This document shows positions 1,944 through 34,330 of a stretch of 48,095 nt of DNA, piece after piece (position 1 is the first letter of the stretch; each line of letters begins with the position of its first letter). The notes below the pieces were generated by a model. It was not told the DNA's origin. It ran no database searches and worked only from the letters and a program-made list of their open reading frames with translations. Both the position numbers and the translations under genes were made by a program. Source of the DNA: a virus; IMG/VR virus record IMGVR_UViG_3300023236_000013, positions 1 through 48,095 of that record. The stretch is one strand, 5' to 3'.

Positions 1944-1950
1944 TTTAAAC

Positions 1951-4172: not shown

Positions 4173-4747
4173 TTAGAGAAGAATTTTTCCCCACAAGTGT
4201 TTTTGGTAAAGATATACAATTAGATAATGATAAACTAGCACAAGACATTATCAGCTGGTCTAATCAAGATCAGGGAGTACAGAAAACAAATTACAAAGGA
4301 TGGCATTCTACAACCGACATGGCATCAAAGCCGGAGTATCAATCCTTAGTCAACGAACTAATGATTATGTGTAAAGATATGTTTAAAGAAGAATGGTTAG
4401 ATAGAGAACCCGTCCTTGGTAATATGTGGGCTAACATAAATCCTAAAGATGGATTAAACCAACCACACATACATCCAAACTCATTGTTTTCTGGAGTGTA
4501 TTATGTTAAGTCTAATCCTCAAGCAGGAAGATTAAAAATATATGATCCAAGACCTGGAGCACAAATAGTAATGCCTAATAGACGAGAAGGTAAACCCCCT
4601 AAACATTTATGGAGGGATGCAAATCTTGATCCTATTCCTGGAAGAATTATAATGTTTCCCGCCTGGTTATGGCATAGTGTTGAACCTAATCAATCTAATG
4701 ATTTAAGAATATCAGTAAGTTTTAATTTTATACAACATGGCTTTTAA
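4169..4747 (+). CDS. 2OG-Fe(II) oxygenase (2OG-FeII_Oxy_5 type)
   Basis: A 192-aa protein with a convincing family signature: NQPHIHPNSLFSGVYYVK around residues 96-113 (H-x-H variant of the metal motif), then RLKIYDPR, then PGRIIMFPAWLWHSVEP near residue 168 (distal His), and RISVSFNF at the C-terminus with the cosubstrate Arg. This matches the conserved phage/bacterial family with a tail such as PG-x-hhhFP-x-x-L-x-H. It overlaps the preceding gene by 4 nt and the next by 11 nt. Confidence 0.85.
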   Translation: MIREEFFPTSVFGKDIQLDNDKLAQDIISWSNQDQGVQKTNYKGWHSTTDMASKPEYQSLVNELMIMCKDMFKEEWLDREPVLGNMWANINPKDGLNQPHIHPNSLFSGVYYVKSNPQAGRLKIYDPRPGAQIVMPNRREGKPPKHLWRDANLDPIPGRIIMFPAWLWHSVEPNQSNDLRISVSFNFIQHGF

Positions 4748-5384
4748 TAAATATCAAGTAATCAAAGGTGCGGTTAGTTATGAGTTAGCTAATTTTATAT
4801 TCAACTACTTCTTACTTAAACGAGATGCGGTTAAGTACATGTATGATAATAATATTACGTATGACACTGGAATGCTTGGAACATGGACCGATGCACAAAT
4901 ACCCAACACCTATTCTCATTATGCTGATCCAGTAATGGAGACTTTGTTAGTTAAAGTACTACCAGTCATGGCCCAGGAAACGGGGCTACAATTAGTCCCC
5001 ACTTATTCCTATGCAAGAATTTATAAGAATGGAGACACACTTCATAGACACAAAGATAGACCCAGCTGTGAGATATCGACAACGATAAACTTGGGTGGTG
5101 AACCGTGGCCCATATTTATAGATGGGACAGGTGCGGATAATGTTATGAATGAAAGACAAAATTTAGTCAAATCTGGTGCTCCAGAAGGCACGAAAGTCCT
5201 GCTTGAAGTTGGTGATATGCTAGTATATAGTGGATGTGAATTAGAGCATTGGAGAGAACCTTTTGAAGGAACTACTTGCGGACAAGTATTTCTTCATTAT
5301 AACCATGTGAATGGTCCTTTTGCAGAAAAGAATAGGTTTGACAAAAGGCCAATGTTAGGTGTTCCACCAATACGGAATACATAA
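4737..5384 (+). CDS. 2OG-Fe(II) oxygenase-like protein 4
   Basis: A 215-aa protein. TLHRHKDRPSCEISTTINL around residues 101-119 holds the H-x-x-D-like metal box, GDMLVYSGCELEHWREPF near residues 160-177 the distal His and Arg, and QVFLHYNHVNGPF ends the fold. The segment EPWPIFIDG is typical of marine phage members. It is the last of four different oxygenases encoded head-to-tail, overlapping the previous gene by 11 nt. A hydroxylase role is known for the family; its target here is unknown. Confidence 0.75.
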   Translation: MAFNKYQVIKGAVSYELANFIFNYFLLKRDAVKYMYDNNITYDTGMLGTWTDAQIPNTYSHYADPVMETLLVKVLPVMAQETGLQLVPTYSYARIYKNGDTLHRHKDRPSCEISTTINLGGEPWPIFIDGTGADNVMNERQNLVKSGAPEGTKVLLEVGDMLVYSGCELEHWREPFEGTTCGQVFLHYNHVNGPFAEKNRFDKRPMLGVPPIRNT

Positions 5385-5394
5385 ATGGAGTTAT

Positions 5395-7614
5395 ATGTTA
5401 CAAAAATTAGGGTTTTTACCGGGATTCAATAAACAAGTTACATCTACAGGAGCCGAGTCTCAATGGACTGGCGGTGAGAATGTGCGTTTTAGATATGGTA
5501 CACCTGAAAAAATTGGTGGTTGGAAGCAATTAGGTGATAGTAAACTAACGGGAGTTACTAGAGGCTTACATCATTTTGTTAGTAAAGCATCTATTAAGTA
5601 CGCAGCTATCGGAACTAATAGAATTTTATATATTTATTCAGGGGGAGTGTACTACGATATACATCCCATTAAAACAGACTTTGGAGTTTTGTCAGGAGCC
5701 TTTACTTGTAATTTTACAAGTGGTAGTGCTGCAGTAACTATTACTTTCCCAGGAGGATCTTATACTACAGCAGGAATGTCACAAGGTGATATTTTATTGA
5801 TGACTGATTTTACTGGTGGAGCAGGAACAGGATTCTCAGCAACAGATTTTGATGATAAAAAATTTATGATTGCTTCAGTTGATAGTACAACTCAAGTTAC
5901 AATCACAATGCCAAGTAATTCTACAGCGAGTACAACAGGAACATTTAAAGTCCAGTGGTATTACCCAGTGGGACCAGCAGAACAATTAGGAGATTTTGGT
6001 TGGGGTATATCTTTATTTGGTGGAAATATTTTAGGAGCATTAACAACTACATTAAATGGTAGTTTAAGTGATAACGCTTTTGGAACAGGAGGAAGTGGAA
6101 CAACTATTACATTAGCGAGTGTTATCGGCCTTCCAAGTACAGGTACAAATTATATTCAAGTGGGTACTGAAGAAATATCTTACACAGGAGTTACAGCAAG
6201 TACTATAACTGGAATTACTAGAGCGGTAAGAGGATCAACAAGAGCAGCACATAGCACCGGCGCTACAGTTACTAATACTTCATCTTACACAGGTTGGGGA
6301 TCACCGGCCGCTAACACCGATTCTGTATCAGACCCCGGTCAATGGTCCTTGGACAATTTAGGCCAAACTTTAATTGCTTTAATTGTTAATGGGGAATGTT
6401 TCGAATGGGATTCAAACGCAGTTAATGCAACAGATAATAGAGCAACAATTATTGCAGGTGCACCAACAGCGTCACGTGATATGTTAGTATCAACACCGGA
6501 TAGACACTTAGTATTTTTTGGAACAGAAACTACGATTGGGGATCCTACAACCCAAGATGGTATGTTTATAAGATTCTCTTCTCAAGAAAATATTAATGAC
6601 TACACCCCAACAGCAATCAATAGTGCTGGTACACAGAGATTGGCCGCCGGATCACGGATCGTGGGTGCTAAACTTGGTAGAAATGCAATCTATGTTTGGT
6701 CGGACACGTCTTTATTTACAATGAGATTTGTTGGAACTCCATTCACATTTGCTTACGAACAAGTTGGAACTAACTGTGGGTTAATGGGTAAAAATGCAGC
6801 GGTTGAAGTAGATGGTACGGCTTACTGGATGTCTGATAATGGTTTCTTTAGATACACCGGTCGATTAGAATCGATGGATTGCCTAGTAGAAGATTACGTT
6901 TATGATGATTTAAATACAACTTCTAATGAATTAGTTTATTGTGGAATCAATAACTTGTTTGGTGAGATTACTTGGTTCTATCCAACGTCTACATCAAATA
7001 AAAATAATAGATCTGTTACTTATAGTTATTTAGATTCAACAAGAGAAAGACCTATTTGGTTTACTAATGCTAGTACTCTTTATCAAAGAAGTACCTGGGC
7101 AGATTCTGCAGTTTTTGGTTTACCTCATGCAAGTAAATATAATGCTAGTGATGATGCGTCTTTCGATGTTGTAGGAAATACAGATGGAATTACAATTTAT
7201 TTTGAACATGAGACTGGAGTTAATCAACAGGAAGCCGGAGTAGTAGCAGCTGCGATTCCAGCAAGTATTACTTCAGGTGATTATGATATTACACAAAAAG
7301 TTGTTCAGGGATCAGCAACTAATATGGCTGACCTTAGAGGTGACGGTGAAAGTATAATGAGAGTGAGTAGAATTATTCCTGACTTTGTTTCTCAAACAGG
7401 AAATGCTATTATTCAATTAGATCTTAGAAATTATCCAAATGATGCAGCAGCGAGTTCACCTTTAGGTCCTTTCACTGTAACAAGCAGTACTAAAAAAGTT
7501 GACACTCGAGCAAGAGCAAGAGCAGTTGCACTTACTATTTCTAATACAGCAGTAGATAGCAGTTGGAAATTAGGAACTTTTAGATTAGATATACAATCAG
7601 GAGGAAGAAGATAA
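5395..7614 (+). CDS. Virion structural protein, tail hub/gp10-like stabilisation type (putative)
   Basis: A 739-aa protein from the ATG at 5395, preferred over one 36 nt upstream because TGGAG precedes it and because the family-like start MLQKLGFLPGFNKQ follows. The sequence is beta- and Gly/Thr-rich throughout, with blocks such as RHLVFFGT, FIRFSSQENINDYTP, AIYVWSDTSLFTMRFVG and GTAYWMSDNGFFRYTG. This pattern resembles the beta-propeller of podovirus tail accessory/packaged-DNA stabilisation proteins (P22 gp10 type). Function is inferred from this pattern and from neighbours. Confidence 0.6.
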   Translation: MLQKLGFLPGFNKQVTSTGAESQWTGGENVRFRYGTPEKIGGWKQLGDSKLTGVTRGLHHFVSKASIKYAAIGTNRILYIYSGGVYYDIHPIKTDFGVLSGAFTCNFTSGSAAVTITFPGGSYTTAGMSQGDILLMTDFTGGAGTGFSATDFDDKKFMIASVDSTTQVTITMPSNSTASTTGTFKVQWYYPVGPAEQLGDFGWGISLFGGNILGALTTTLNGSLSDNAFGTGGSGTTITLASVIGLPSTGTNYIQVGTEEISYTGVTASTITGITRAVRGSTRAAHSTGATVTNTSSYTGWGSPAANTDSVSDPGQWSLDNLGQTLIALIVNGECFEWDSNAVNATDNRATIIAGAPTASRDMLVSTPDRHLVFFGTETTIGDPTTQDGMFIRFSSQENINDYTPTAINSAGTQRLAAGSRIVGAKLGRNAIYVWSDTSLFTMRFVGTPFTFAYEQVGTNCGLMGKNAAVEVDGTAYWMSDNGFFRYTGRLESMDCLVEDYVYDDLNTTSNELVYCGINNLFGEITWFYPTSTSNKNNRSVTYSYLDSTRERPIWFTNASTLYQRSTWADSAVFGLPHASKYNASDDASFDVVGNTDGITIYFEHETGVNQQEAGVVAAAIPASITSGDYDITQKVVQGSATNMADLRGDGESIMRVSRIIPDFVSQTGNAIIQLDLRNYPNDAAASSPLGPFTVTSSTKKVDTRARARAVALTISNTAVDSSWKLGTFRLDIQSGGRR

Positions 7615-8309
7615 TGTCGATTTTAAAATTATTAAGAGATAGACAGATGTATAAACATGGGAAAAGAGTTGGATTCCGTGGCGGCGGAATGGATATGGGT
7701 AATGCATCTAACCAAGCACAAAGTGCCAATATGGGAGGAGGCAGTAGTAATAATAACACAGGCGGAGGTAATGATAATAAAGTAGATCCAGGTTTTCAAA
7801 ATGCATTAAGAACACAATCAATAAGAAATGATATAATTGAAAATCAAAATAATACGGACTATGGTCAATTTTTTGGTAGTGGAGTTCCTACTTTTTCACC
7901 TCCTACTTTTGGTCAACAAGTGGGTAATGTATTTGGAGGGATAGGAAATTATATTAAAGGTGGCGGGTTAATTGGTATGGGTATTAGAGGACTTGACAGT
8001 TTGTTTGATAAAGTAACTGGACCTAAAGCTACTGAATATGGTAATTTAGATGTACCAGGATATAATATGTTAAACATTGCAGGACCAAAAAGTTATGACT
8101 TTGGACCGGAAGGTCAGGGTGGTGGTGATAACCAAGGGATAATGGCTGCATACAATCCTTACACTTTACCTGTAGAAGAAGAAGTTCCGGTATCACAAGA
8201 AGAAGAAGATTTTACACAAAGATTTAGAGTAGCTAATAAATTTAGACAAGATAAGCAAGGTCAGTTAGACCCAGCAATTTTAGAAATGATAAGTAAATTA
8301 TATACATAA
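7614..8309 (+). CDS. Gly/Asn-rich virion-type protein, unknown function
   Basis: A 231-aa protein starting within the previous stop (TAATG). The N-terminus is basic (YKHGKRVGFRGGG), a variant of the GG-R-x-GY motif shared by several virion proteins in this window. Then comes a low-complexity Gly/Asn/Ser stretch and a hydrophobic Gly-rich helix region (GGIGNYIKGGGLIGMGIRGL). The C-terminal third is acidic. The composition suggests a flexible internal or tail-associated protein. No recognised domain. Confidence 0.6.
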   Translation: MSILKLLRDRQMYKHGKRVGFRGGGMDMGNASNQAQSANMGGGSSNNNTGGGNDNKVDPGFQNALRTQSIRNDIIENQNNTDYGQFFGSGVPTFSPPTFGQQVGNVFGGIGNYIKGGGLIGMGIRGLDSLFDKVTGPKATEYGNLDVPGYNMLNIAGPKSYDFGPEGQGGGDNQGIMAAYNPYTLPVEEEVPVSQEEEDFTQRFRVANKFRQDKQGQLDPAILEMISKLYT

Positions 8310-8473
8310 TGGCAAAAATTGTACAAACATTAACAAGAGCTAGTGAAGAATACCAAGCAGATACAGCGCAGTCTTTGGTTAGAGATTTAGATGCCGTTCT
8401 GGAAAAATTAAACACAACGTTTCAAGAAGAATTAAAACAGGAGATAGAAGCTAAGAACTTCTTTTTAAATTAA
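8309..8473 (+). CDS. Small conserved phage protein, 54 aa
   Basis: Starts MAKIVQTLTRASEEYQ on an ATG that overlaps the upstream stop, and its own stop overlaps the next ATG in the same TAATG manner, so it is embedded in a continuous translational chain. The sequence is helical and acidic with Leu/Ile spacing (DLDAVLEKLNTTFQEEL), probably a short coiled coil. The perfect fit between its neighbours supports a real gene. Function unknown; possibly a virion accessory. Confidence 0.65.
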   Translation: MAKIVQTLTRASEEYQADTAQSLVRDLDAVLEKLNTTFQEELKQEIEAKNFFLN

Positions 8474-8808
8474 TGGCAGTAGTCAATCAATATAAATTTT
8501 ATGGAGTAGATAATAGTACGAGTGGGTTAGCATTAACTATGTTTGGTGCCGGTAATCCTTTAGTAAGTGAAACCTATGTTATTAAATCTATTAAAGTTAC
8601 ATCAGCGGCTACACCAGCAGTTACTGTTATGAACAATGCTATCACAACTATTAAAGTTGTAGCACTTACGGCTAATACAACAATGGAATTATTAACTCAA
8701 CCACTAATAGTAGAAGGTGGAAACACTTTAACAGTTCAGTCAAGTACTAGTGATTCATTTGATGTAGCCATCAGTTACTTAAACATTAAAAAGGAAATAA
8801 CTACATAA
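8473..8808 (+). CDS. Small beta-rich virion-type protein
   Basis: A 111-aa protein made of alternating Val/Ile/Thr strands (SETYVIKSIKVTSAATPAVT, MELLTQPLIVEGGNTLTVQ) without Cys and with few charged residues, a typical Ig-like or jelly-roll decoration/tail protein composition. Start and stop both overlap neighbours by one base. A structural role is inferred from composition and from its position between tail genes. Confidence 0.6.
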   Translation: MAVVNQYKFYGVDNSTSGLALTMFGAGNPLVSETYVIKSIKVTSAATPAVTVMNNAITTIKVVALTANTTMELLTQPLIVEGGNTLTVQSSTSDSFDVAISYLNIKKEITT

Positions 8809-8978
8809 TGCAAATACTAACACCCAAAGAAATCATAACGACACTTTCTAATAACAAGACCGGTGAAGTCTATGAGAATGAAGAGGCTTTAAAAGCAGCT
8901 AATATAGCAGAAGAGGACATCAGAAGAGACGTCAAGATTATAATGCCAGCTCTTGATTTGTTGTCGGAAACAAAGTAA
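8808..8978 (+). CDS. Small conserved phage protein, 56 aa
   Basis: ATG overlaps the stop of the beta-rich gene. The protein begins MQILTPKEIITTLSNNK and continues with an acidic helix (NEEALKAANIAEEDIRRD), ending at a TAA 23 nt before the next gene. Continuous coding spacing and balanced composition support it. Function unknown. Confidence 0.6.
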   Translation: MQILTPKEIITTLSNNKTGEVYENEEALKAANIAEEDIRRDVKIIMPALDLLSETK

Positions 8979-9001
8979 AGTAGTAAATTCAGGAAAAATA
9001 T

Positions 9002-10375
9002 ATGTTTGAAAATCAAATAACACAATCCATAGACGCAGGAGCCCCGGATATTACTTATTCAGGTAATGAAGGTCCTAAGTCTCCGCAACAAGAACAGATG
9101 ATACAACAGCAACAAATGATGGAACAGGAACAAAGAATGATGGCCCCTGTAGATTATTCAAGTCCAGCTTTTAAAATAAAATTAATTGAAGGTTTTATGA
9201 GAGACGAGGGATTAGATCTTGGAGCTGCAACTGCAAAAGCAGAGTGGATAATACGTGAAAAATTAAAACCAAGACAAGGTGCTGCCTTTGGTGGAATCAT
9301 GGGTCTTGATGGAAGAAAACAATATGGTTGGGGAAGTAAAATAAAAGATAGAATTAGAAAATTAATACCAAATGAAGTAGCAAAGGTTGCAGAAGTTGCA
9401 GCACCGTTTGTTGCACCGTTTAATCCATTAGCTGCAGGTTTAATGTCGGGTATAGGTGGTTTTGATAGAACAGGTAAAATAGGTTCATCAATTAAATCAG
9501 GGTTAATGAATTATGGTATGGGTCAATTAGCTAGAGGTATTGGTGGTGGTATGGATAATTTACAATCAGGATTTAATCCTGCAGGTGGATTTGGTGACGC
9601 GACAACATTTGGAAAAGGTTTCTTAAGTAACCCAATGCAAGGTAAAGGGGGGTTAAGTGGATTTTTATCTAAAACGCCAGCAGATAGTGGTGTAAGTAGA
9701 AATGTTTATCAGCAATTGGGTGGAGGAGCTGACATGGCTCAAGTAGCTACAAAACCGGGTTTTGTAGAAAGCATTGGAAATAAAATTTCAAGTTTAATTC
9801 CTGAAAGCACACTAGGTAAAATAGCTTTAGGTGGGGGTGCCGTGGCTCTTGGAACAGCATTATTGGGTATGGGTCCACAAGAAGTAGAGTCAGCTATCAT
9901 GAGCCGTGGTGAAGGGTTAGATATCGCAGGTATTAGAGCAGAAGTAACAGAAGCATTTAAAGATCAAACAGGTGAAAAATTATTAGCACTTAGAAGTAAG
10001 TATCCTTACCTTGGAACACAAGCATCTAAAAACACAGCGATCATGGCTTATGGTGGAAGAATAAGAAGAGCCGAAGGTGGATTAATGAACCTTGGAGGTA
10101 TGGAAAAAGATTATAGAGCTGAAGGTGGGTTTGTACCTATTGGAGCTAAAGAAAAAGCTGACGATGTCCCTGCAAGATTAAGTGTAAATGAGTTTGTATT
10201 TACTGCAGATGCTGTTAGAAGTGCAGGTGGGGGAGATATAGATAAAGGAGCAGAAGTTATGGAGAGAGTTATGAAAAATTTAGAAGCGGGTGGACAGATA
10301 TCTGAAGACTCACAAGGCATGCAAGGCGCAAGAGAAATGTTTCAAACATCACAACGATTAGGAGAAGTACTATAA
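9002..10375 (+). CDS. Large virion/ejection-type structural protein with GG motifs
   Basis: A 457-aa protein. The N-terminus is Gln/Met-rich (QQEQMIQQQQMMEQEQRMM). The middle holds hydrophobic Gly/Ala helices (VAPFNPLAAGLMSGIGG, GKIALGGGAVALGTALLGMG) like membrane-active ejection proteins. The C-terminal 110 residues have repeated Gly motifs (YGGRIRRAEGG, YRAEGGFVPIG) and then DDVPARLSVNEFVFTADAV, a phrase I associate with marine podovirus internal or tail proteins. Start: ATG with AGGAAAA upstream. A virion role is inferred. Confidence 0.65.
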   Translation: MFENQITQSIDAGAPDITYSGNEGPKSPQQEQMIQQQQMMEQEQRMMAPVDYSSPAFKIKLIEGFMRDEGLDLGAATAKAEWIIREKLKPRQGAAFGGIMGLDGRKQYGWGSKIKDRIRKLIPNEVAKVAEVAAPFVAPFNPLAAGLMSGIGGFDRTGKIGSSIKSGLMNYGMGQLARGIGGGMDNLQSGFNPAGGFGDATTFGKGFLSNPMQGKGGLSGFLSKTPADSGVSRNVYQQLGGGADMAQVATKPGFVESIGNKISSLIPESTLGKIALGGGAVALGTALLGMGPQEVESAIMSRGEGLDIAGIRAEVTEAFKDQTGEKLLALRSKYPYLGTQASKNTAIMAYGGRIRRAEGGLMNLGGMEKDYRAEGGFVPIGAKEKADDVPARLSVNEFVFTADAVRSAGGGDIDKGAEVMERVMKNLEAGGQISEDSQGMQGAREMFQTSQRLGEVL

Positions 10376-11283
10376 TGGCTGTACAACAAACACAAGCACT
10401 ACCCCCACAATATGTGGAAGATTTACAGAAGGATTATGGAAAACAGTTAACAGCAACAACTGCCGCACCATTAGATACTTCTAAATTTGCACCTCAAGTT
10501 GCAGCACAAGATGCAGCTCAAACGTCTGCTTATAATTTAGCAACAGGCCAAGGGATTGGTGCATTCTCTCCTTATATTACACAAGCGGGAGCTTACGATA
10601 CGGGAGCAGGACAATATGGAACTGCCGCTGGAGGTTATTCGGGACCACAAGCTTATCAACAATTTCAATCACCTTACCAACAAGATATAATCGATGCAAC
10701 ATTAGCAGAATATGACACACAAGCTGCTGCAGGTATGACAGGTATTGGTCAACAAGCAGCGATGTCTGGAAACTTAGGTGGTGGACGTGAAGGTGTAATG
10801 AGATCACAATATCAAAACAAATCTGATTTAAATAGAGCTTTGTTACAATCAGGTTTATTACAACAAGGGTATACTCAATCTAATCAATTAGCAAACCAAG
10901 CCTTTGGACAACAAATGAATTTAGGAGATCAACAATTAGGTCTATCACAAAATCAACAAGGATTAGCTGGACTCGTTCCAAGTTTATATCAACAAGATGT
11001 AAGTACTTTAGGATCAGCGGGCGCAGGTCAACAAGCTCAAGCTCAAGCAGTGTTAGATGCACAAAGAGAAGGCAATAGATTAGAAGCTTACGAACCTTAT
11101 GAAAGACTTGGTTATCAAGGTCAAGGTATTGCTAGTATTGCATCGGGTGCACCAGGACAATATCAATCAACAGTTACACCTAACTCTACACCGTTACAAA
11201 CTGCACTAGGAATAGCATCAGTTGGTGGAGGATTACTTGGAAACTATGGTGATTATTTAAGAGGATCAAAAGGAATAAAATAA
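10375..11283 (+). CDS. Gln/Ala-rich virion protein, DNA-ejection type
   Basis: A 302-aa protein starting inside the previous stop (TAATG). It is rich in Gln, Ala, Gly and Tyr. The phrase SPYQQDIIDATLAEYD followed by MSGNLGGGREGVMRSQYQ matches the S-P-Y-x-x-x-hhD ... GGxR layout seen in ejection proteins of marine podoviruses. The C-terminus has a hydrophobic Gly-rich helix (ALGIASVGGGLLGNYG). No enzyme motif. Likely packaged in the virion and released with DNA, by inference. Confidence 0.6.
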   Translation: MAVQQTQALPPQYVEDLQKDYGKQLTATTAAPLDTSKFAPQVAAQDAAQTSAYNLATGQGIGAFSPYITQAGAYDTGAGQYGTAAGGYSGPQAYQQFQSPYQQDIIDATLAEYDTQAAAGMTGIGQQAAMSGNLGGGREGVMRSQYQNKSDLNRALLQSGLLQQGYTQSNQLANQAFGQQMNLGDQQLGLSQNQQGLAGLVPSLYQQDVSTLGSAGAGQQAQAQAVLDAQREGNRLEAYEPYERLGYQGQGIASIASGAPGQYQSTVTPNSTPLQTALGIASVGGGLLGNYGDYLRGSKGIK

Positions 11284-20820: not shown

Positions 20821-22293
20821 ATGAATGAAATTAAAAATATAAATAACGGGCCAATTACTTACGGGGATTGGTATGATCTGGGATACACTTTGGTGCCATG
20901 CGAGGCAGGTAGGCCTAAAGTTTTAAGCTGGAGCAGTCCAGATTTTAAAATAACGAAAGAAGAATGGAAAAACAAACACACAGACAAAGAAATAGGATTA
21001 AGATTAGATAACGTAGTAGATTTAGATATTGATAATAATCGTGCAAAAGTTTTTGCAAATAAATATTTACCAAATTGGCCTACAATATCTGGTAGAGAAC
21101 ATAACCCCACAAGCCATTATTGGTTTAAAGCAAGATTACCGGCACAGAAATTTTCATTACCAAAAGACCTTGAAAGATATGTTGAACATGCGGTACATGG
21201 ACAATGTTTATGTGAAATAAGAAGTACGGAAACATGTTATACCATCGTTCCAGGCTCATTACATAGTAAACATAGAGAACATGTAAGATGGGAAAAGTAT
21301 GAAGGCTTTAAAGAATACCCCGGTGATTTAAATAAAATCCTAAGAAAGATAACTTTAGCTACTGCTTTATCTATTTTGTATGCACCTAAAGGTCAACGTG
21401 ATGAATATTGTACGGCTATTGCTGGAGTTTTAATTAAGCAAACAGATTGGGAGGATACTGAAATTAATGATTTTATTTATGACATTGCAGTAGAATCTAA
21501 TGACGATGAATCTGAAAATAGAAAAAATAAAGGTTCAACAACAAGAAAATCTAAAAAACCATTTGGCATGCCTAAACTTGCAGAAATAATTGAATGCAGG
21601 ACTGAAAGTATTGCAACAGTATTTAGTTGGATAGGTGTCCAAGATAAATCATTAGTACAAGTTAAACAAATAGCTGATGACTCTATGGGTGAAATTGTCG
21701 AGTATGGTGAGGACAGATATAAAATAGAAGTAACAGGAAAATTAGAAGGGAAGTCTTTTACGAAAACAATCACAATTGACGGACCAACACTTATGAACCA
21801 ATTAAAGTTTTATGATGCTGTTGTAACTCAAGCTCAAGTTTGGATTCCAAAAATGAAAGCGGCACAGTTTGAGGAGATTATGAGAATGAAATTTGAATCA
21901 AGAACTAAATCAAAAGACTACGTGGCAGAAGCTGCAGAGTCTAATAAGATTAAGAAACATTTTACTAATTATATTAAACTGAAAAAAGCATATACAAGTA
22001 AATCAGAATTATTTAATTATGGAAACCCTTATTTAAATCAACGGGCTAATGAATTAGAATTTAGTTTAAATGGGTTTGAGGATTATTTAGAAGAACAAAG
22101 AGTGAGTTACAAAAAACGAGTAGATCTTGTACTTTTAGTACAAGACGTATTAAATGCTAAAAGAAAAACAGGGACCTACCTAACAAAATCTTTAGTTTCT
22201 TGGGTAATAAAGGATCCTGAAATTCAAAATGAAGATATTCTGCTAGCAGGGAAAAGTGAAGAAACGGAGGAAATAAATTTTGAACAAGCCTAG
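20821..22293 (+). CDS. Primase-polymerase (PrimPol-type) protein
   Basis: A 490-aa protein. Residues 12-170 fit the bifunctional primase/polymerase domain: YTLVPCEAGRPKVLSW near the N-terminus, the catalytic D-x-D in VVDLDIDNN (residues 65-73), then SGREHNPTSHYWFK (90-103) with the conserved Ser-Gly and His, and a later Arg-containing strand CLCEIRSTE. The remainder is helical and may hold a PriCT-like region. It would make primers for the PolA encoded downstream. It overlaps the helicase gene by 14 nt. Confidence 0.8.
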   Translation: MNEIKNINNGPITYGDWYDLGYTLVPCEAGRPKVLSWSSPDFKITKEEWKNKHTDKEIGLRLDNVVDLDIDNNRAKVFANKYLPNWPTISGREHNPTSHYWFKARLPAQKFSLPKDLERYVEHAVHGQCLCEIRSTETCYTIVPGSLHSKHREHVRWEKYEGFKEYPGDLNKILRKITLATALSILYAPKGQRDEYCTAIAGVLIKQTDWEDTEINDFIYDIAVESNDDESENRKNKGSTTRKSKKPFGMPKLAEIIECRTESIATVFSWIGVQDKSLVQVKQIADDSMGEIVEYGEDRYKIEVTGKLEGKSFTKTITIDGPTLMNQLKFYDAVVTQAQVWIPKMKAAQFEEIMRMKFESRTKSKDYVAEAAESNKIKKHFTNYIKLKKAYTSKSELFNYGNPYLNQRANELEFSLNGFEDYLEEQRVSYKKRVDLVLLVQDVLNAKRKTGTYLTKSLVSWVIKDPEIQNEDILLAGKSEETEEINFEQA

Positions 22294-23968
22294 ATTTATT
22301 GCAGGTCCTCCAGGTACAGGTAAAACTCATAAATTTATTGTAGATATGTATATGAAAGCTTTAGAAAAATATACTCCTGAAAAAATTATAATTTTATCTC
22401 ATACTAACATAGCAGCTAATGAAATTAGAGATGCTATTTTTGATTTAAAAAATTTAAAAAATGAAGAAGGACATTATATATTTCCACAATTACGAGGGAT
22501 TACTAAAAAAGCAATGAAGCATAGAGTATGTACCATCCATACTTATTGCAAAAGTAGATTATTAAAAAAAGAAATGTTTAATTTACACAATCATAAAGAA
22601 TTAATAAACAAAGATAGTCGTTTTAATCTCCACAGGGAAGACGACATACAACGTAAACATAGATTTTATAAATACTTATCAGACGCTGACGGACATGGAG
22701 AAACTTTAGATAAGTATTGGATTAAATGCAATCAAAAATCTTTTGATCCATATGGTTTAACATTAATTAAAGAGTTACTTCCACTTTATGAAAAATATAA
22801 AAAGGGTCACAATCTTTGTGATTTCTCTGATATGATAAATAATTTTACACGTCAAACGTATAATGAAAAAACTAAACAACTGGAAGACGATGTAAAAGAT
22901 CCAGATATAGATATGTTAATTATAGACGAATGTCAGGATTGTAATGTACCTCAAAGAAAAGCTATTGATAAAATGGCAAGAAACGTAAAAGAAGGCCATT
23001 ACTATTTAGTTGGAGATGCAGATCAAACCTTATTTGAGTATTCAGGATCAGATGCAAAATATTTTCACAACTTAGCTGCAAATCCTTATTATGAATTAAA
23101 AGAAGGCAGTAGATGTGGTGAAGCTATTAATACATATTGTAAATCGATCATACACGATGTTTGGGAGGAGTATAAGTCTCATAGAGTGTGGACTCCAGCA
23201 AAATATCAAGAAAAGCATAAAAAGGGCCATATAGGGGAAGTCATTAAAGGAACAGGTTATTATTTACCAGATTTAAAACCATCGGGAAATTTAAATAAGC
23301 TTTTAGATAAAATTAAAAATACTGAGGAAACATTTCTATTTACTTATAGAGGAACTCCAAGCGATGTACGTTGTACAGATTTCCTTATGGCACAAGGTAT
23401 AGAATTTGCTCCAGTAAGTAAGCCTGCATTTGTAATTAAAAAAGAATTAAGAGCTCACAAATTATGGCCAGAGTTTATTAAAGGTATTCCAATGGATCTT
23501 ACTCAGATAAAACATTTTTGTGAATATTTAAGTAAGGATTTGATTATTGGAGATAAATCTAAAGCAACAGAAACTATTAAAAAATGGATTAAAAAAGATT
23601 ACACTGTGGATTATTTAATAGATAATAAATTACTGAAATCTACTTGTAAGGGACATAAGGATTTTGATCTAATAAGAGCACCGGTTAACAAACATAAAGA
23701 ACGAATGGAATATATAAAAAAGGTTTTATATAAAGGTTTTGATTTTGATAAAAAAGTTAGAGTTGAATATGCAAACATTCATACTGTTAAAGGTTTAACA
23801 TATGATAATGTTATTGTTGACGAAACTATCGTTAATAAAGATCCTTACTTCACTTCAAGAAGATTACAATACACTGCATACAGCAGAGGAATTTTTGACT
23901 ATTGGAGATTAGCAAAAATGTCCGGAAAAAAATACTTCACAATAGGAAAGAAAAATGAGTGCTTATAA
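22280..23968 (+). CDS. Superfamily 1 (UvrD/Pif1-like) DNA helicase
   Basis: A 562-aa protein starting at TTG (22280), chosen because GGAGG lies nine nt before it and no ATG fits. Walker A is AGPPGTGKTH (residues 8-17), motif Ia ILSHTNIAANEI, Walker B LIIDECQD near 213, motif III LVGDADQTLFEYSG, and the C-terminal motifs IHTVKGLTYDNVIVDE and RLQYTAYSRG. These define an SF1A-type helicase, probably the replicative or recombination helicase of the phage. The start overlaps the primase by 14 nt, so the two are translationally coupled. Confidence 0.9.
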   Translation: MNKPRFIAGPPGTGKTHKFIVDMYMKALEKYTPEKIIILSHTNIAANEIRDAIFDLKNLKNEEGHYIFPQLRGITKKAMKHRVCTIHTYCKSRLLKKEMFNLHNHKELINKDSRFNLHREDDIQRKHRFYKYLSDADGHGETLDKYWIKCNQKSFDPYGLTLIKELLPLYEKYKKGHNLCDFSDMINNFTRQTYNEKTKQLEDDVKDPDIDMLIIDECQDCNVPQRKAIDKMARNVKEGHYYLVGDADQTLFEYSGSDAKYFHNLAANPYYELKEGSRCGEAINTYCKSIIHDVWEEYKSHRVWTPAKYQEKHKKGHIGEVIKGTGYYLPDLKPSGNLNKLLDKIKNTEETFLFTYRGTPSDVRCTDFLMAQGIEFAPVSKPAFVIKKELRAHKLWPEFIKGIPMDLTQIKHFCEYLSKDLIIGDKSKATETIKKWIKKDYTVDYLIDNKLLKSTCKGHKDFDLIRAPVNKHKERMEYIKKVLYKGFDFDKKVRVEYANIHTVKGLTYDNVIVDETIVNKDPYFTSRRLQYTAYSRGIFDYWRLAKMSGKKYFTIGKKNECL

Positions 23969-24161
23969 AAAACAAGTAGGAGGATCACATTATAAAGATA
24001 TGGCGATTCAACCAGCAGATTTTATTAATAAAAACAAATTACTTTTTGCAGAAGGAAATGCAATTAAATATATTTGTAGACATCAGTCAAAGGGTGGATT
24101 ACAAGACATAGAGAAAGCTATTCACTACTTAGAAATGATAATAGAAAGGGATTATAAATAA
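23955..24161 (+). CDS. DUF3310-type small protein
   Basis: A 68-aa protein with the family signature GGSHYKDMAIQPADFI, then EGNAIKYICRHQSKGG and DIEKAIHYLEMII. This short family is widespread in phages next to replication and nucleotide genes. Its biochemical role is not established. Overlaps the helicase by 14 nt and the polymerase start by one base. Confidence 0.85.
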   Translation: MSAYKKQVGGSHYKDMAIQPADFINKNKLLFAEGNAIKYICRHQSKGGLQDIEKAIHYLEMIIERDYK

Positions 24162-26251
24162 TGTGTGACGTTCCACAACTCAATGAGTTAAATTTAGAAG
24201 GTATTGATATTGTTGCAATTGACTTAGAGACTTACGATCCTAATTTAAAAACAAAAGGATTAGGCGCTGTAAGAAAAGATGGTTTTGTTACCGGTATTGC
24301 AATCGCTACTAAGAACCAGACTTTTTATTTCCCTATCGCTCACCACATGACTGAGAATTTAAATACCAAAGAAACTTGGGCTTATTTAAATGAAAAGATA
24401 TTTCAAAACAAAAATATACGTAAGGTATTTCATAATGCTATGTACGATGTATGTTGGATTAGATCAGCAACTGGAGATATGCTTAAAGGAGAGCTATTAG
24501 ATACCATGATTGCAGCATCAGTTATTGATGAAACTAGAATGAAATATTCTTTAGATTCTATCAGTAAAGATTATTTAAATGAAACTAAATACAAATATGA
24601 TTTAGCTGAAAAAGTTTTAGAGTGGTCTAATGGAATGATAAAAGATCCAATGTCTAATATGCACAAACTGCCTCATCATTTAGTAAAAGATTATGCAGAA
24701 CAAGATGTTAATTTAACATTAAAACTGTGGAGCCTATTTGAAAAAAAATTAGATGAAGTATTATATACAAAAACTAATCCAGATGGAAGTAAAGAATATA
24801 AAACATGTAGAAAGATATTTGAATTAGAAACTAAATTATTTCCTTGTTTGGTTGACATGAAGTTTAAAGGCGTTAGGATAGATGTCGAAAAAGCTAAGAC
24901 ACTTGGAAAACTTCTAGAAAAACGTAGGGATAATTTATTAAAAATTATTAAGAAACATACTAATGTTGATGTAGAAATATGGGCTGCTTCTTCTATTAAA
25001 GCTTTGTTAGAGCATGAGAAAATTACCGATTACGAAAAAACAAAAGATAGGAAGAAAAAATTAAAAGATAAAGATGGTAAAATTCTTCTTGATGAAAAAG
25101 GGGAAGCTAAAATAGAATTAGTTCCATCTACTACTCCTAAACTTCCAAAAGATTATTTAAAGACTCATGAAAATCGTTTCTTAAGAATGATTGTAAAAGC
25201 TAGAGAATGTGACAAAGCTAAAAATACTTTTGTTGAAGGCTTATTAGATTTTGTCCATGAAGGAAGAATACATGCAGATATTAATCAAATTAGATCAGAT
25301 CAAGGGGGAACGGTTACTGGAAGGTTCTCAATGTCTAATCCTAACTTACAACAAATTCCATCTAAAGGAATCATCGGTAAAAAGATGAGAGAACTTTTTA
25401 TACCTGATGAGGGCTGTGTGTGGGGATCATTCGATTACAGTCAACAAGAACCACGGATTGTGGTCCACTATGCTTTAACTTTATATCCTTATAAGAATCC
25501 TGATATTGAGATGCCTAATAATTTAAGAGAGAGTTTAGAACAGATTGAAGAGTCTTATAAAATATCCGATGTAGACTTTCACCAAGTTGTTGCAGACATG
25601 GCTCACATATCACGGACCATGGCCAAGACAATTAACCTAGGACTTTTCTATGGTATGGGTAAAATAAAATTAGCCAGCGAATTAAATTTAACTAAAGCTC
25701 AAGCTAGTGTTTTGTTTAATACTTATCATGAGAAAGCTCCGTTTGTTAAGAAGTTATCTCAGGATTTGATTGAGTTTGCAGAAGATAATAAACTATTATT
25801 TACATTGGGAGATAGATTTTGTAGATTTAATAAGTGGGAAACTAAAGACAGATCATGGAATAATACAATTAATAGATATGAGCCAGTTCCAATATTATCA
25901 GAAGATGACGCAAAGAGAGCTTTTAAAGCTGAATTATTAGATAAGTATAAAGATCACATAGCTGATAATTATATGGGCGACTTTACTAAACATTATAAAC
26001 CTGCATTTACTTACAAAGCTTTGAATAGGTTAATTCAAGGTAGTGCGGCAGATATGACTAAGAAAGCTATGGTAGACTTATACGAGCAGGGAATTTTACC
26101 ACAGATACAAATACACGACGAGTTGTGTTTGTCTATTGATAGCGAAGAAACTGCTAAAATAGTAAAAGAAACTATGGAGAATGCTATTCTTCTTAAAGTG
26201 CCTAACAAAGTAAATTACAAATATGGTAAAAATTGGGGGTCAATAAAATGA
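24161..26251 (+). CDS. polA: DNA polymerase I-like (family A) with 3'-5' exonuclease
   Basis: A 696-aa protein. The exonuclease domain has VAIDLETYD (Exo I, D-x-E), HNAMYDVCWI (Exo II) and YAEQDVNL (Exo III). The polymerase domain has GRFSMSNPNLQQIP, motif A FDYSQQEPRIV, motif B RTMAKTINLGLFYGMG and motif C QIHDELCLS. All catalytic carboxylates are visible. There is no 5'-3' exonuclease domain. In motif A the usual S-Q-I-E-L-R is S-Q-Q-E-P-R, as in several phage enzymes. It is the replicative polymerase, working with the primase and helicase just upstream. Confidence 0.97.
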   Translation: MCDVPQLNELNLEGIDIVAIDLETYDPNLKTKGLGAVRKDGFVTGIAIATKNQTFYFPIAHHMTENLNTKETWAYLNEKIFQNKNIRKVFHNAMYDVCWIRSATGDMLKGELLDTMIAASVIDETRMKYSLDSISKDYLNETKYKYDLAEKVLEWSNGMIKDPMSNMHKLPHHLVKDYAEQDVNLTLKLWSLFEKKLDEVLYTKTNPDGSKEYKTCRKIFELETKLFPCLVDMKFKGVRIDVEKAKTLGKLLEKRRDNLLKIIKKHTNVDVEIWAASSIKALLEHEKITDYEKTKDRKKKLKDKDGKILLDEKGEAKIELVPSTTPKLPKDYLKTHENRFLRMIVKARECDKAKNTFVEGLLDFVHEGRIHADINQIRSDQGGTVTGRFSMSNPNLQQIPSKGIIGKKMRELFIPDEGCVWGSFDYSQQEPRIVVHYALTLYPYKNPDIEMPNNLRESLEQIEESYKISDVDFHQVVADMAHISRTMAKTINLGLFYGMGKIKLASELNLTKAQASVLFNTYHEKAPFVKKLSQDLIEFAEDNKLLFTLGDRFCRFNKWETKDRSWNNTINRYEPVPILSEDDAKRAFKAELLDKYKDHIADNYMGDFTKHYKPAFTYKALNRLIQGSAADMTKKAMVDLYEQGILPQIQIHDELCLSIDSEETAKIVKETMENAILLKVPNKVNYKYGKNWGSIK

Positions 26252-30525: not shown

Positions 30526-30668
30526 TGGAAGATAAAGACATAAAGGAATATAATAAATTGATTAAGAAATTAGAAGAAGATAAATTCAAAAAAGAACAAC
30601 AAGAACTTGATGAGAGTTATAAACAATCGTTAGCAAACAAAAAGGAACGTGATGATAAAGAAAAGTAA
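30522..30668 (+). CDS. Charged coiled-coil mini-protein, 48 aa
   Basis: ATG overlaps the previous stop (ATGATG). Charged helix with KEYNKLIKKLEEDKFKKEQ and QQELDESYKQSLANKKERD. Overlaps the nuclease gene by 17 nt. Probably a helical accessory; function unknown. Confidence 0.45.
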   Translation: MMEDKDIKEYNKLIKKLEEDKFKKEQQELDESYKQSLANKKERDDKEK

Positions 30669-31344
30669 CAAATACAAGTATATACAAGGTAAACAACTCA
30701 CGGACCCCGGATCAGGGACCAGGATGTATGAGATCGGTAATTATAAACTACCGTCAGTGACGACTGTACTCGGCGCCACAAAGAATCAAGATTTTATAAA
30801 AAAATGGAAAGCTAAAGTTGGCGAAGAAAACGCAGAACGAATAAAAAATCATAGTGCAAGTCGTGGAACTTGTATGCACAAATATCTAGAACATTATGTT
30901 CTTGGAACTAACATCATAGATCTAACTCCCATAGGCCAACAAGCACGGCCCATGGCTGATAAAATTATTGAAGTAGGTCTAACGCCAGTAGACGAATATT
31001 ATGGATCAGAAGTTATGTTGCACTATCCAGGGCTCTATGCCGGCGCTACAGACCTTATCTGCTCCCACAATGGTATGGAGACTGTCGTAGATTTTAAGCA
31101 AAGCAATCGACCAAAAAAAGAAGAATGGATTCAAGATTATTATTTACAAATTTCTGCCTACGCAATGGCCCATGATTATGTTTATGGGTCACAAATTAAA
31201 CAAGGAGTTATAATGATTTGTACACCAGATCTTTATTACCAGGAGTTTAAAATTGAAGGAATACAATTAAGAAAATCTAAACATGAGTTTCTAAAAAGAT
31301 TAGATATGTATAATGAACTACAGGGAAAATTATGTATAGATTAA
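30652..31344 (+). CDS. PD-(D/E)XK nuclease, Cas4/RecB-like
   Basis: A 230-aa protein. SRGTCMHKYLEHYV is the alpha-helical entry motif, GLYAGATDLIC supplies the catalytic Asp, METVVDFKQSNRPKK the D-x-K pair, and YYLQISAYAMAHDY the Q-x-x-x-Y motif of RecB/Cas4-type exonucleases. I use the ATG at 30652 after AAAGGA; a GTG directly before it is also possible. Cys clusters of Cas4 Fe-S proteins are not present. The likely role is end-processing in recombination or host DNA degradation. It carries a GGACC-type repeat in its N-terminus (30699-30720). Confidence 0.8.
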   Translation: MIKKSNKYKYIQGKQLTDPGSGTRMYEIGNYKLPSVTTVLGATKNQDFIKKWKAKVGEENAERIKNHSASRGTCMHKYLEHYVLGTNIIDLTPIGQQARPMADKIIEVGLTPVDEYYGSEVMLHYPGLYAGATDLICSHNGMETVVDFKQSNRPKKEEWIQDYYLQISAYAMAHDYVYGSQIKQGVIMICTPDLYYQEFKIEGIQLRKSKHEFLKRLDMYNELQGKLCID

Positions 31345-31435: not shown

Positions 31436-32151
31436 TGCCAAGAATTAAAGGAAGTGGGAAATATCCACTAAAATACACAAATCCAATAACAGGAGCCGTT
31501 TCAGACAATGCCCGGTATATAGATGAACAGGGAAACAAACGTAATGCCACTGCATCATTCTGTTTTGTTGAGGGGAAATGGGTTTCAATGCGGGATGCCC
31601 CACACAATAGAGAAACAAATAGAATATATCAAAATAGTAAACGAGGTTATATGTTAACTCTGCACAAGATGGCTAGAGCTCATTTAAAACAAAAATTAGA
31701 AAGAGGTAGACAAGTTTTAGGAGAAAATGAACTTATAGATTTTCCAAAGGAAGGTGTAAATCGTAAGAATCCTTTTATTGCACAAAAATTTATTAAACAT
31801 TTTGATGAACAAGTAGCACATTATGGTTATAGATGTCCTTTGACTCATATTCCTTTTACAATGACTATGGCTAATAAAAAATTTGATATAAATAACCAAG
31901 TTAAAACTTTTTCCAATGTGTCTCCCGACCGTATCTTTAACAATATAGGTTATGATAAACAAAATACATTATTTACTTCCCAATTATGGAATTTAACAAA
32001 AGCTGAACGATCTCTTTTTGAATTACAAATAATTTTTAAACCTGAAATAATAGAACGGTATATAGCAATTATATTAGAACGATTTCCAGATCAAAGATAC
32101 AAGATTAATGAGTTAGAGAACGGGGCGGAGCACCCTCAAGAGAGACGATAG
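31435..32151 (+). CDS. Endonuclease VII/HNH-like protein
   Basis: A 238-aa protein from the ATG at 31435, after an AGGAG. The core resembles recombination endonuclease VII-like/HNH folds: YGYRCPLTHIPFTM, then NVSPDRIFNNIGYDKQN, then LFTSQLWNLTKAE, i.e. Cys, S-P-D-R-I, G-Y-x-x-x-N and N-x-x-K boxes. The zinc-binding Cys pairs are incomplete. The N-terminal region has basic PRIKGSGKYPLKY. It lies next to the iteron region and could act in packaging or recombination; this is inference. Confidence 0.5.
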   Translation: MPRIKGSGKYPLKYTNPITGAVSDNARYIDEQGNKRNATASFCFVEGKWVSMRDAPHNRETNRIYQNSKRGYMLTLHKMARAHLKQKLERGRQVLGENELIDFPKEGVNRKNPFIAQKFIKHFDEQVAHYGYRCPLTHIPFTMTMANKKFDINNQVKTFSNVSPDRIFNNIGYDKQNTLFTSQLWNLTKAERSLFELQIIFKPEIIERYIAIILERFPDQRYKINELENGAEHPQERR

Positions 32152-32465
32152 GCTCTTAAGCTGTTAGGATGGCTTCTTACCCCTTTTCATCACGTCCTAG
32201 CAGCACCTATCATTACCCAATATTACTGGATCAAGAGGCATGGAACACGGACCATGGATCAATTAAGATAAATTGTGTTCTAATTGTGGCAAGATTAAGG
32301 CAGAATAAGGCAGAATCTAGGTGTCGCGGAAGTGTCGCGATTTGCATTTTACGCCATTCTAGGTGTCGCGATAGGTGTCGCGATTTGCTTCGAAGTGTCG
32401 CGATTTTAAAAGGAATGTGACAGATTGTCGCGATTGTGGACAGAATGTCGCACTTTTGGGGCTAG

Positions 32466-32482
32466 ATTAGAATCATTCTAAT
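32466..32482. repeat. Central perfect palindrome ATTAGAAT-C-ATTCTAAT
   Basis: A 17-nt perfect palindrome with 8-bp arms, located between the direct-orientation iterons and the inverted ones, forming the dyad axis of the iteron cluster. Confidence 0.7.
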
Positions 32483-32659
32483 GTATCGCGACACCTGGAG
32501 GCAAAATCGCGACACTTTTTATCGCATAAAACGACATCGCGACACTTTCGCGACACTACAGGTGTCGCGATGTTTTGGTCAATTGAAGCGCTTATACCAA
32601 TGCTTCTAGGAGATAGGTCAAGCTTATTTACCAATCGCGACACCTTCCCAGATTTTTTA

Positions 32660-32690
32660 GCGCAAATAAATAAAAAAAATATAAATTACC
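32660..32690. other. AT-rich stretch next to the iterons
   Basis: Almost pure A/T (AAATAAATAAAAAAAATATA and flanks), immediately right of the last exact iteron (32635) and before the near-copy at 32699. It is a candidate DNA-unwinding element if the iteron cluster is an origin. Confidence 0.45.
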
Positions 32691-32791
32691 CCTTTAGGTA
32701 TCGCGATCCTATCTTGCCTTATTTCAGACACAATTAAATTACTTTTACCTTTACCCTGTCCATGCCTATATTTTTGATATATAAGGTTCTT

Positions 32792-33112
32792 ATGCCTAAT
32801 AGAAAAAACAAATCTAGGAATTTAAACACCTATTCTAAACCTAAGTTGATAAAACAAGAGGCTACATTTCCATATTCAAGGTATAAAATTGATTGGTGTG
32901 ATATTGTTACTGAAGGTGGATGGGGTTCTGATAAAGAATTTAAGAATATGAAGCTAGCGACTCCTGTAAGTGAAGGTTATCTATTTAGTAAAGATAAACA
33001 TACTGTAAAAATCTTTGCCGGCTATGATATTGATGATGATGGTACTATAACTTTTAGTGAACGTTCTGTTTTCCCGACTTCTTGTGTTCTGAAGATGACA
33101 AAGCTTCATTAA
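32792..33112 (+). CDS. Small phage protein with a conserved-looking core, unknown function
   Basis: A 106-aa protein, start at the second in-frame ATG (32792) with AAGG upstream; an ATG 30 nt earlier encodes only MPIFLIYKVL. The sequence holds YSRYKIDWCDIVTEGGWGSD and a strand-rich C-terminus (TVKIFAGYDIDDDG). The block I-D-W-x-D-I resembles short proteins found near phage DNA-processing genes. First gene right of the iterons. Confidence 0.55.
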   Translation: MPNRKNKSRNLNTYSKPKLIKQEATFPYSRYKIDWCDIVTEGGWGSDKEFKNMKLATPVSEGYLFSKDKHTVKIFAGYDIDDDGTITFSERSVFPTSCVLKMTKLH

Positions 33113-33124: not shown

Positions 33125-33256
33125 ATGCCTTATAAAAATATAGAAGATAGGAATGATTCTACTAGAAGATACTATCAAAGAAATAAAGAAGAGCTTAGGC
33201 GTAAAAGAAGAGAGCGCTATAGTCTTATCCAAAAAAGAAAAACTGAGGCTTTATAA
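33125..33256 (+). CDS. N-terminal part of an HNH endonuclease gene, frameshifted from its body
   Basis: Reads MPYKNIEDRNDSTRRYYQRN, then KEELRRKRRERYSL, then stops after 43 residues. MPYKNxEDR is a typical HNH endonuclease start, and NKEELRRKRRERYSL is a 15-residue unit like those in the next reading frame (NKEKISEQKKQYYLA, NKEKISKERKQYHLD). Shifting +1 at the CTT codon (33224-33226) gives Y-S-L-S-K-K-E-K, preserving the 15-residue period. So this and the following frame were one gene. Confidence 0.6.
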   Translation: MPYKNIEDRNDSTRRYYQRNKEELRRKRRERYSLIQKRKTEAL

Positions 33257-33806
33257 TAAACAGTATATATTAGATAATAAGGAAAAGATTTCTGAACAGA
33301 AAAAACAATATTACTTAGCTAATAAAGAAAAGATTTCTAAAGAAAGAAAACAGTATCATTTAGATAATAGAGAAAGTCGGATACTATATAATAGACAGTA
33401 TAGATTAGATAATAGAGAACAGATTTCTGAATATAAAAAAGAATATGAATTAGCTAATAGGGAAAAAATATATAGTTATAAAAAACAAAAAAGAGATACT
33501 GATCCACTTTTTAGGTTAACCCATTTACTTCGTAATAGGCTCCGAGAAGCTTTAAAAGGTAATAGTAAATCAGCTTCTACTATGAAATTATTAGGGTGTA
33601 GTATTGAATTTCTAAAACAACACTTAGAGAAACAATTTAAACCTGGAATGAGTTGGGAAAATCGAAGTTCATTTCATGTAGATCACATTAGACCTTGTGC
33701 GAGTTTTGATTTAATTAAGCCTGAAGAACAAAGAAAATGTTTTAATTATACTAATCTTCAACCTTTATTTCCTATAGATAATATGAGAAAAGGTGCTAGA
33801 TATTAA
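33153..33806 (+). CDS. HNH homing endonuclease body
   Basis: Residues 25-110 are six consecutive 15-residue units such as NREQISEYKKEYELA, a charged helical DNA-binding arm. Then comes FKPGMSWENRSSFHVDHIRP, the first His pair of the HNH fold, and FNYTNLQPLFPIDNMRKG, the second (N-x-x-L-Q-P-L and D-N). The first 30 residues from the ATG at 33153 look like out-of-frame translation of the N-terminal repeats, so the native start is probably 33125 via a +1 shift or a mutation. Its stop overlaps the convergent TerS gene by 4 nt. Confidence 0.8.
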   Translation: MILLEDTIKEIKKSLGVKEESAIVLSKKEKLRLYNKQYILDNKEKISEQKKQYYLANKEKISKERKQYHLDNRESRILYNRQYRLDNREQISEYKKEYELANREKIYSYKKQKRDTDPLFRLTHLLRNRLREALKGNSKSASTMKLLGCSIEFLKQHLEKQFKPGMSWENRSSFHVDHIRPCASFDLIKPEEQRKCFNYTNLQPLFPIDNMRKGARY

Positions 33807-34330
33807 TTTAATAATTCTTTTGCTTTTTTAGATGGTTTTATCGTCTCAACCTCTTCAACCTCGGCCTCGACAGTCTTCATATTCAGCATCGGAGCGTAGT
33901 CTTCTAAAATCTTTTTCATTTTTAATTCTATTTCTTCTTCTGATAAATCTTCTAATTTCCCATGTTTTATTATTTTTCTGTCTATGTATAATCCTGCTGC
34001 CTTGCCTCGAGATACTTCAGCGTTCACAGCAGAAGAGAAACTGCCTTTCTTTAAAGCGGCCGTCTTAATTCTATCTAGTTCAGCTAAATGTTTATCGTAA
34101 GTAATTTCATGCTTTTTTATTCGCTCTTGCTTAAGTGAATCTACATATTGAACTACTAATGGAGATAGTCTAGGATTTAATAATTCTGATCCTTCTACTT
34201 TACACCTTTTGTGACTGTATCCAGCTAGCTTAGCTGCTTCTGATTGAGATACAGGACCTTCCTCGTCACCGAATACTATAAACTCGGCAAACCTCTTTTG
34301 CATTTCAGTTAATCTTTTAGGAACTCCCAT
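33803..34330 (-). CDS. terS: Terminase small subunit (TerS)-like
   Basis: A 175-aa protein. RLTEMQKRFAEFIVFGDEEG, then SEAAKLAGYSHKRCKVEGSE, then LLNPRLSPLVVQYVDSL match the Nu1/Terminase_2 small-subunit layout: an HTH domain with L-T-x-x-Q-x-x-F, A-A-x-x-A-G-Y and L-L-x-N-P-x-hh. The C-terminal helical part provides oligomerisation, and the last 40 residues are acidic then basic. It lies on the opposite strand from TerL (39526) and over 5 kb away. Transcribed from its own, near-leaderless promoter. Confidence 0.75.
   Translation of the reverse strand: MGVPKRLTEMQKRFAEFIVFGDEEGPVSQSEAAKLAGYSHKRCKVEGSELLNPRLSPLVVQYVDSLKQERIKKHEITYDKHLAELDRIKTAALKKGSFSSAVNAEVSRGKAAGLYIDRKIIKHGKLEDLSEEEIELKMKKILEDYAPMLNMKTVEAEVEEVETIKPSKKAKELLN

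Follow-up and report, generated by a model that had tools for sequence, protein, structure and literature searches.

A phased, two-arm repeat array as the probable replication origin of a SAR11-phage-like virus

The array and its surroundings

The window -- the whole stretch of DNA analysed here, a linear virus contig of 48,095 bases -- is from an uncultured, SAR11-phage-like ocean virus of the HTVC023P/HTVC027P type; by its large terminase, the closest cultured phage is Pelagibacter phage HTVC027P, at 68.5% identity. Viruses of the HTVC023P type have been described as widespread pelagiphages (PMC9599517), and none of the papers searched, all from the open-licence literature, describes a pelagiphage replication origin. 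Between the exonuclease gene and terS lies a non-coding array of short repeats, whose parts and neighbours are as follows:

20821-22293, + strand: primase of the PrimPol type, its C-terminus (about residues 362-478) predicted to be a winged helix; candidate initiator at the array; co-segregates with the array core
22280-23968, + strand: UvrD/PcrA-like helicase; co-segregates with the array core
24161-26251, + strand: family A DNA polymerase (PolA); co-segregates with the array core
30649-31344, + strand: PD-(D/E)XK exonuclease, between PolA and the array; internal control, no co-segregation
32281-32307: left outer inverted arm, 74% complementary to 32710-32736; flanks of relatives similar
32321-32707: iteron array as a whole, 13 GTRTCG-core sites, non-coding
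32321-32433, + strand: left half, six direct sites at 32321 (near-copy), 32332, 32363, 32375, 32395 and 32425 (near-copy)
32466-32482: central palindrome ATTAGAATCATTCTAAT, present in many relatives but missing from L217 and L299
32486-32556, - strand: right half, four inverted sites at 32486, 32507, 32537 and 32548
32562-32570, + strand: direct site, hairpin partner of 32548-32556
32578-32619: conserved non-iteron block GTCAATTGAAGCGCTTATACCAATGCTTCTAGGAGATAGGTC, from an alignment of 9 loci
32635-32643, - strand: inverted site, left bracket of the AT-rich element
32644-32697: bracketed element CTTCCCAGATTTTTTAGCGCAAATAAATAAAAAAAATATAAATTACCCCTTTAG, candidate DNA unwinding element, with a 25-bp pure A/T run
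32698-32706, + strand: direct site GTATCGCGA, right bracket
32710-32736: right outer inverted arm; flanks of relatives similar
32762-33112, + strand: small downstream gene, phrog_25889; does not track the iteron letters
33803-34330, - strand: terminase small subunit (TerS); packaging-site control, no co-segregation

A sequence-only reading had drawn attention to this region through ten exact copies of a 9-mer, and that count holds: GTGTCGCGA occurs five times on the + strand (32332, 32363, 32375, 32395, 32562) and five times on the - strand (32486, 32507, 32537, 32548, 32635), and nowhere else in the 48,095-base record. The four near-copies reported with them are likewise present, at 32321 (GTGTCGCGG), 32425 (TTGTCGCGA), 32698 (GTATCGCGA) and 32483, the last overlapping the inverted copy at 32486. 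All 12 occurrences of TCGCGA in the record fall inside 32321-32707, as do 14 of the 16 genome-wide matches to the 9-mer with one mismatch or none, where 1.5 would be expected for the whole genome. When 30 order-2 Markov genomes were generated, the densest 9-mer cluster per 400 bp held 3-5 copies in 28 runs, and 7 and 9 copies in the remaining two; the observed number is 10. No repeat cluster in the genome is denser than the array, and G001, a relative of 63.6 kb, likewise has no TCGCGA beyond the 12 of its own array; an equally dense site elsewhere, proposed as a refuting observation, was found in neither the window nor G001.

The six sites to the left of the palindrome are all direct (spacings 11, 31, 12, 20 and 30), and to its right come four inverted sites (spacings 21, 30 and 11), one direct, one inverted and one direct, in agreement with the earlier description of a direct left half and a mainly inverted right half. 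The hairpin said to be formed perfectly by two copies spans 32548-32570 and has 10 pairs; an equivalent of its direct site lies 76 bp ahead of the next inverted site in most arrays. The central 17-nt palindrome at 32466-32482, described as perfect, pairs perfectly in its arms and leaves its centre base unpaired. This element (TTAGAATCATTCTAA) resembles the boxes of Irr/ICE-like iron regulators.

Clusters of inverted and direct repeats are also a feature of parS-like centromeres, and the array could in principle be a partition site bound by ParB. A small ParB_N-like gene does lie at 2580-2942, in the structural region (Pfam E 5e-4, below the cut-off); it is however 30 kb from the array and was present in none of the array-bearing relative contigs searched, many of them partial, and no ParA was recognised among the proteins scanned. 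Partitioning is the least likely of the functions considered.

Two other features of the interval may be mentioned. To the left of the array, at 32110-32215, is a conserved structured element with a stem formed by GATAGG..GCTGTTAGGA and TCCTAGCAGC..CCTATC; two compensatory pair changes are seen among 7 sequences, the single-sequence fold z is just -1.2, and no Rfam family matched it at the gathering threshold. An Endonuclease VII-like gene (33153-33806), located between the small downstream gene and terS, is missing in G001 and G010, which are similar contigs in other respects, and from this pattern it is likely to be a mobile endonuclease insertion.

Conservation, helical phasing and the AT-rich element

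Loci of relatives were gathered by scans for the exonuclease plus TerS, which gave 160 locus rows in which the same contig is sometimes repeated. A two-copy pattern scan of IMG/VR was discarded; it returned mostly unrelated GC-rich phages with chance pairs, L121 being the only orthologous match. The array DNA had no match among cultured phages, and Rfam and tRNA scans found nothing. In the relatives the array occupies the same place, between exonuclease and terS, and the search for the 9-mer cluster at this locus, which the sequence-only reading had suggested, yielded 27 distinct arrays, all with the core GTRTCG. Many of them follow a common plan of direct copies, often a palindromic centre, and inverted copies, closed by three single sites that are direct, inverted and direct in turn; since L217 and L299 lack the palindrome, the architecture does not depend on it. 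Palindrome-like sequences also persist in loci without the GTRTCG core (G007, L243).

Neighbouring sites of the same direction lie 9-12, 20-22, 30-32 or 41-43 bp apart in the 27 distinct arrays, and rarely at distances between these. The phasing resultant at 10.5 bp is 0.85; the relatives are not independent of one another, though counting each different spacing above 14 bp just once (12 values) leaves it at 0.70. Same-direction sites are thus separated by approximately whole helical turns and would lie on one face of the helix, the spacing that is expected of an iteron origin.

The second expectation, an adjacent AT-rich element, concerns the right end of the array. The almost pure A/T stretch earlier placed at 32660-32690 is a pure A/T run from 32664 to 32688 (25 bp), while the range as first given also takes in GCGC and CC. 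Scored over 30 bp, the element belongs to the least stable segments in the genome (99.2 percentile of instability), but over 60 bp it reaches only the 82 percentile. The last inverted and last direct sites lie 57-61 bp apart, with AT-rich DNA and an AGCGC motif (TTTTTTAGCGC-like) between them, in 23 of 24 distinct intervals; in the 24th (L215) the search chose the wrong pair of sites. Anatomy and conservation together thus provide what appears to be the expected AT-rich neighbour.

These two observations bear on the proposal that the inverted repeats matter as a large single-stranded DNA or RNA hairpin or cruciform, homogenised by quasi-palindrome template switching, which would account for the concerted letter changes described below. 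The region folds far better than shuffled sequences (DNA z -9.2), and spacer pairing supplements that of the repeats in 8 of 14 arrays, with at most 1 of 100 repeat-preserving shuffles folding as low. Several arrays nonetheless show little extra pairing (z -0.7 in L299, -1.3 in L232, -1.5 in L236), the z may be inflated by an extended repeat consensus beyond the fixed 9 letters, and neither helical-turn spacing in the duplex nor a bracketed AT tract is predicted by a hairpin or cruciform, which is therefore regarded as very unlikely to be the main function.

Symmetric, phased sites could also serve as a dense operator or transcription switch, at which a repressor or activator would control genes on one or both sides, with the central palindrome as a possible separate operator. 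Promoter-like matches do exist at the array, but they are no commoner than in shuffles (11 vs 8.2); the genes flanking the array are co-directional, no nearby regulator gene was found that follows the array type, and L229 and L218 have almost the same downstream gene in spite of their different repeats. A regulatory function is correspondingly given little credence. The conserved CTAGAAG..TTGGTATA block was considered as a promoter and rejected, as it does not rise above chance.

Co-segregation with the replication genes

The contigs compared here are those containing PolA, the exonuclease and the whole interval between exonuclease and terS, and counts refer to distinct contigs. Those with a window-type PolA (62.7-100% identity to that of the window) carry 6-13 GTRTCG sites in each case, approximately 11 of 11, together with a primase and helicase recognisable as window-type wherever the contig covers these genes; four further window-type rows with 0-1 sites are shortened copies of array-bearing contigs. 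Contigs of the HTVC027P type, which a second scan seeded with an HTVC027P-type PolA raised to seven distinct members, have 0-1 such sites, the array being absent in all seven, and most of them have other repeats at the locus. Their replication set is also different, with PolA 40-48% and helicase 24-29% identical to the window proteins and a primase without detectable similarity. HTVC023P also has this set but has been left out of the comparison, as its exonuclease lies elsewhere and its interval is not comparable. The contrast of 11/11 with 0/7 corresponds to a Fisher-type p of about 3e-5 (1 in 31,824 if the contigs were independent, which they are not), a value that is too small because the co-segregation partly reflects common descent.

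Among the genes compared, only primase, helicase and PolA cleanly separate the two groups. The gene at 20000 does so just marginally (72 vs 70%) and that at 30099 on few members, while the exonuclease, TerS, the gene at 26351 and a DUF3310-like gene do not. Exonuclease identity to the window is 81-86% in several HTVC027P-type contigs and 64-69% in several window-type ones, and the TerS ranges overlap, with 60-73% in uncultured HTVC027P-type contigs and 68-92% in window-type contigs. Since these identities cut across the groups, the array has stayed with the replication genes through recombination of its neighbours. Common descent could also account for part of the co-segregation; it is probably not the whole cause, because the flanks have recombined on both sides of the array.

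The same comparison bears on packaging, in which TerS would bind the repeats and the terminase would cut nearby at a pac or cos site. Repeated TerS sites are known in other phages, which counts in favour, and terS, about 1.1 kb from the array in the window, is near it in the relatives too. The core does not track TerS, however, TerS identity being 60-73% in uncultured contigs without the core and 64-92% in those with it; a bracketed AT-rich element is unexpected at a packaging site; and TerS proteins 99% identical to each other accompany different array types (L229 vs L218, L216 vs L220). As the core is kept with the replication genes while its neighbours recombine, a packaging site is an improbable reading.

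Phasing, the AT-rich bracket and co-segregation with replication genes rather than with the exonuclease or TerS are the reasons why an origin is favoured over an operator or packaging site. The role first suggested, that of an iteron origin, thus gains support from helical phasing, from the bracketed AT tract and from the joint inheritance of the core with primase, helicase and PolA, and the array probably serves the phage as its sole or main replication origin. GC skew does not turn here, but with nearly all genes pointing one way this neither supports nor refutes an origin.

Variation of the repeat word

Although the core GTRTCG is invariant, the letters that follow it vary with the locus (CG, CA, A or G), and the copies inside one array usually, though not without exception, agree in them; variants across arrays are GTGTCGCGAT, GTGTCGCAG, GTGTCGAAA and GTGTCGG. 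Alignments of loci with conserved spacers show orthologous sites switching from GTGTCGCGAT to GTGTCGCAG while the intervening DNA is kept.

A 10.16 kb stretch that includes the replication genes is 99.83% identical between contig G013, of the GTRTCGCG type, and contig G004, of the GTGTCGCA type; their primases differ at 2 of 445 residues, and their helicases and PolAs not at all. A replication-module initiator therefore cannot be the reader of the post-core letters. These blocks correspond to L432 (G013) 1-10162 and L381 (G004) 730-10891, beyond which the two diverge sharply toward exonuclease and array, and their alignment places the end of a recent recombination near an HNH gene. In the pairs with 99% identical TerS mentioned above (L229, of the GTGTCGCGA type, with L218, of the GTGTCGCA type, and L216 with L220), the N-terminal part of TerS is identical or has one change. 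TerS, the downstream gene, primase, helicase and PolA have consequently been rejected as readers of the post-core letters, each being near-identical across array types; the exonuclease, which near-identity does not exclude, shows no tracking. The protein at 32762 (or 32792), which had been put forward as a candidate binder, is thereby eliminated as a reader of the letters after the core. Repeats of an iteron origin are expected to track the initiator genes; here the core does so and the post-core letters do not. These letters may be made uniform in the absence of selection, for instance if inverted repeats switch templates, or an unseen factor may read them.

Other repeat words, among them AAGTGTCA, GTACACTT, TGGAACT, GGTACCAA and GGTTCGCA, are found at the same locus in L243, L270, L281, L320, L341, L360 and L362, and most of these repeats adjoin a GCGCGCGA-like motif and a T-rich stretch.

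A candidate initiator

Within the replication module, the primase is the preferred candidate for binding the core. Prim-Pol domain matches were obtained in 7 of 23 relatives (best E 1.6e-7). The model of the whole primase is poor in its N-terminal half (mean pLDDT 61.9), so that the C-terminal domain alone was used; this 117-residue segment is modelled well (pLDDT 89.6) and matches winged helices, namely SCCmec Cch (Z 6.7), the MCM8 winged helix (5.8) and TcpK on oriT DNA (5.7), all modest matches with Z below 7, where Z below 8 is no proof of kinship. The segment also resembles ORC subunits and, in BFVD, phage primases (E 6.8e-5 and 4.6e-4). A PDB sequence search with the primase profile returned nothing, and Foldseek against PDB gave no match below E 0.001 for either primase model. 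The array binder would be a replication-module protein, possibly the PrimPol primase acting through its predicted C-terminal winged helix.

One scheme would accommodate these features. A DNA-binding protein of the replication module, most likely the primase winged helix, would bind the GTRTCG cores; with cores about whole turns apart, direct on the left and inverted on the right, the bound copies would all occupy the same side of the DNA, where cooperative assembly could give a complex with two-fold symmetry. The AT-rich element between the last two sites could then be opened, allowing helicase, primase and PolA to start. Binding, the identity of the binder, unwinding and initiation are all steps that we infer.

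Comparison with known origins

The ori of phage lambda and Stx phages has 4 or 6 iterons for the O protein beside an AT-rich tract (PMC7466680), and the array is similar in placing repeated candidate initiator sites beside such a tract in a phage. Lambda iterons, however, are few and lie inside the O gene, while here there are 12-13 short non-coding sites in two opposed arms, and no O/P-like genes were recognised among the proteins scanned. In iteron plasmid origins, helical phasing matters for cooperative binding (PMC4980987). Like the origins of RK2, R6K, P1, F and pSC101, the array combines several short sites with a candidate unwinding element; plasmid iterons, though, are mostly direct repeats of 17-22 bp rather than 6-9 bp sites in opposed arms, and plasmids use a DnaB-loading Rep, where the window has no recognised Rep-family protein and PrimPol, UvrD and PolA genes instead.

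PLE satellites have type-specific iterons that are recognised by a matching initiator RepA_N (PMC7145576). The array resembles the PLE, SaPI and SCCmec replicons in its type-specific iterons, and the end of SCCmec Cch is the nearest match to the primase C-terminus. These satellites and islands, with PLE RepA_N, SaPI Rep and SCCmec Cch, use initiators of the RepA_N or AAA+ helicase kind, whereas the candidate here is a phage PrimPol primase. Array-like repeats between the replication genes and terS are also seen in HTVC027P, HTVC023P and 023Pt_psg01 (7 copies of TGGCACA in 023Pt_psg01, 5 of CTAGGAAA in HTVC023P, a weak array in HTVC027P), but with different repeat words and a different set of primase, helicase and PolA.

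Implications

With a 390-bp origin candidate and a named candidate initiator, pelagiphage replication becomes directly testable, and depth gradients in existing sequence data could also test the origin candidate. Natural swaps, in which a similar exonuclease and terminase accompany a different replication set and different repeats, provide ready-made tests of protein-sequence pairing, while the concerted change of a dozen sites amid otherwise conserved DNA is an open evolutionary question. A broader conjecture, which is offered tentatively and is considered unlikely, is that in this group of pelagiphages a PrimPol primase, through its winged-helix tail, would read phased two-arm arrays at which replication begins, and that the iteron word would be under diversifying pressure, its core switching with the replication module and its later letters sweeping through all copies while the spacers stay fixed, as if to deny the origin to relatives or satellites infecting the same cell.
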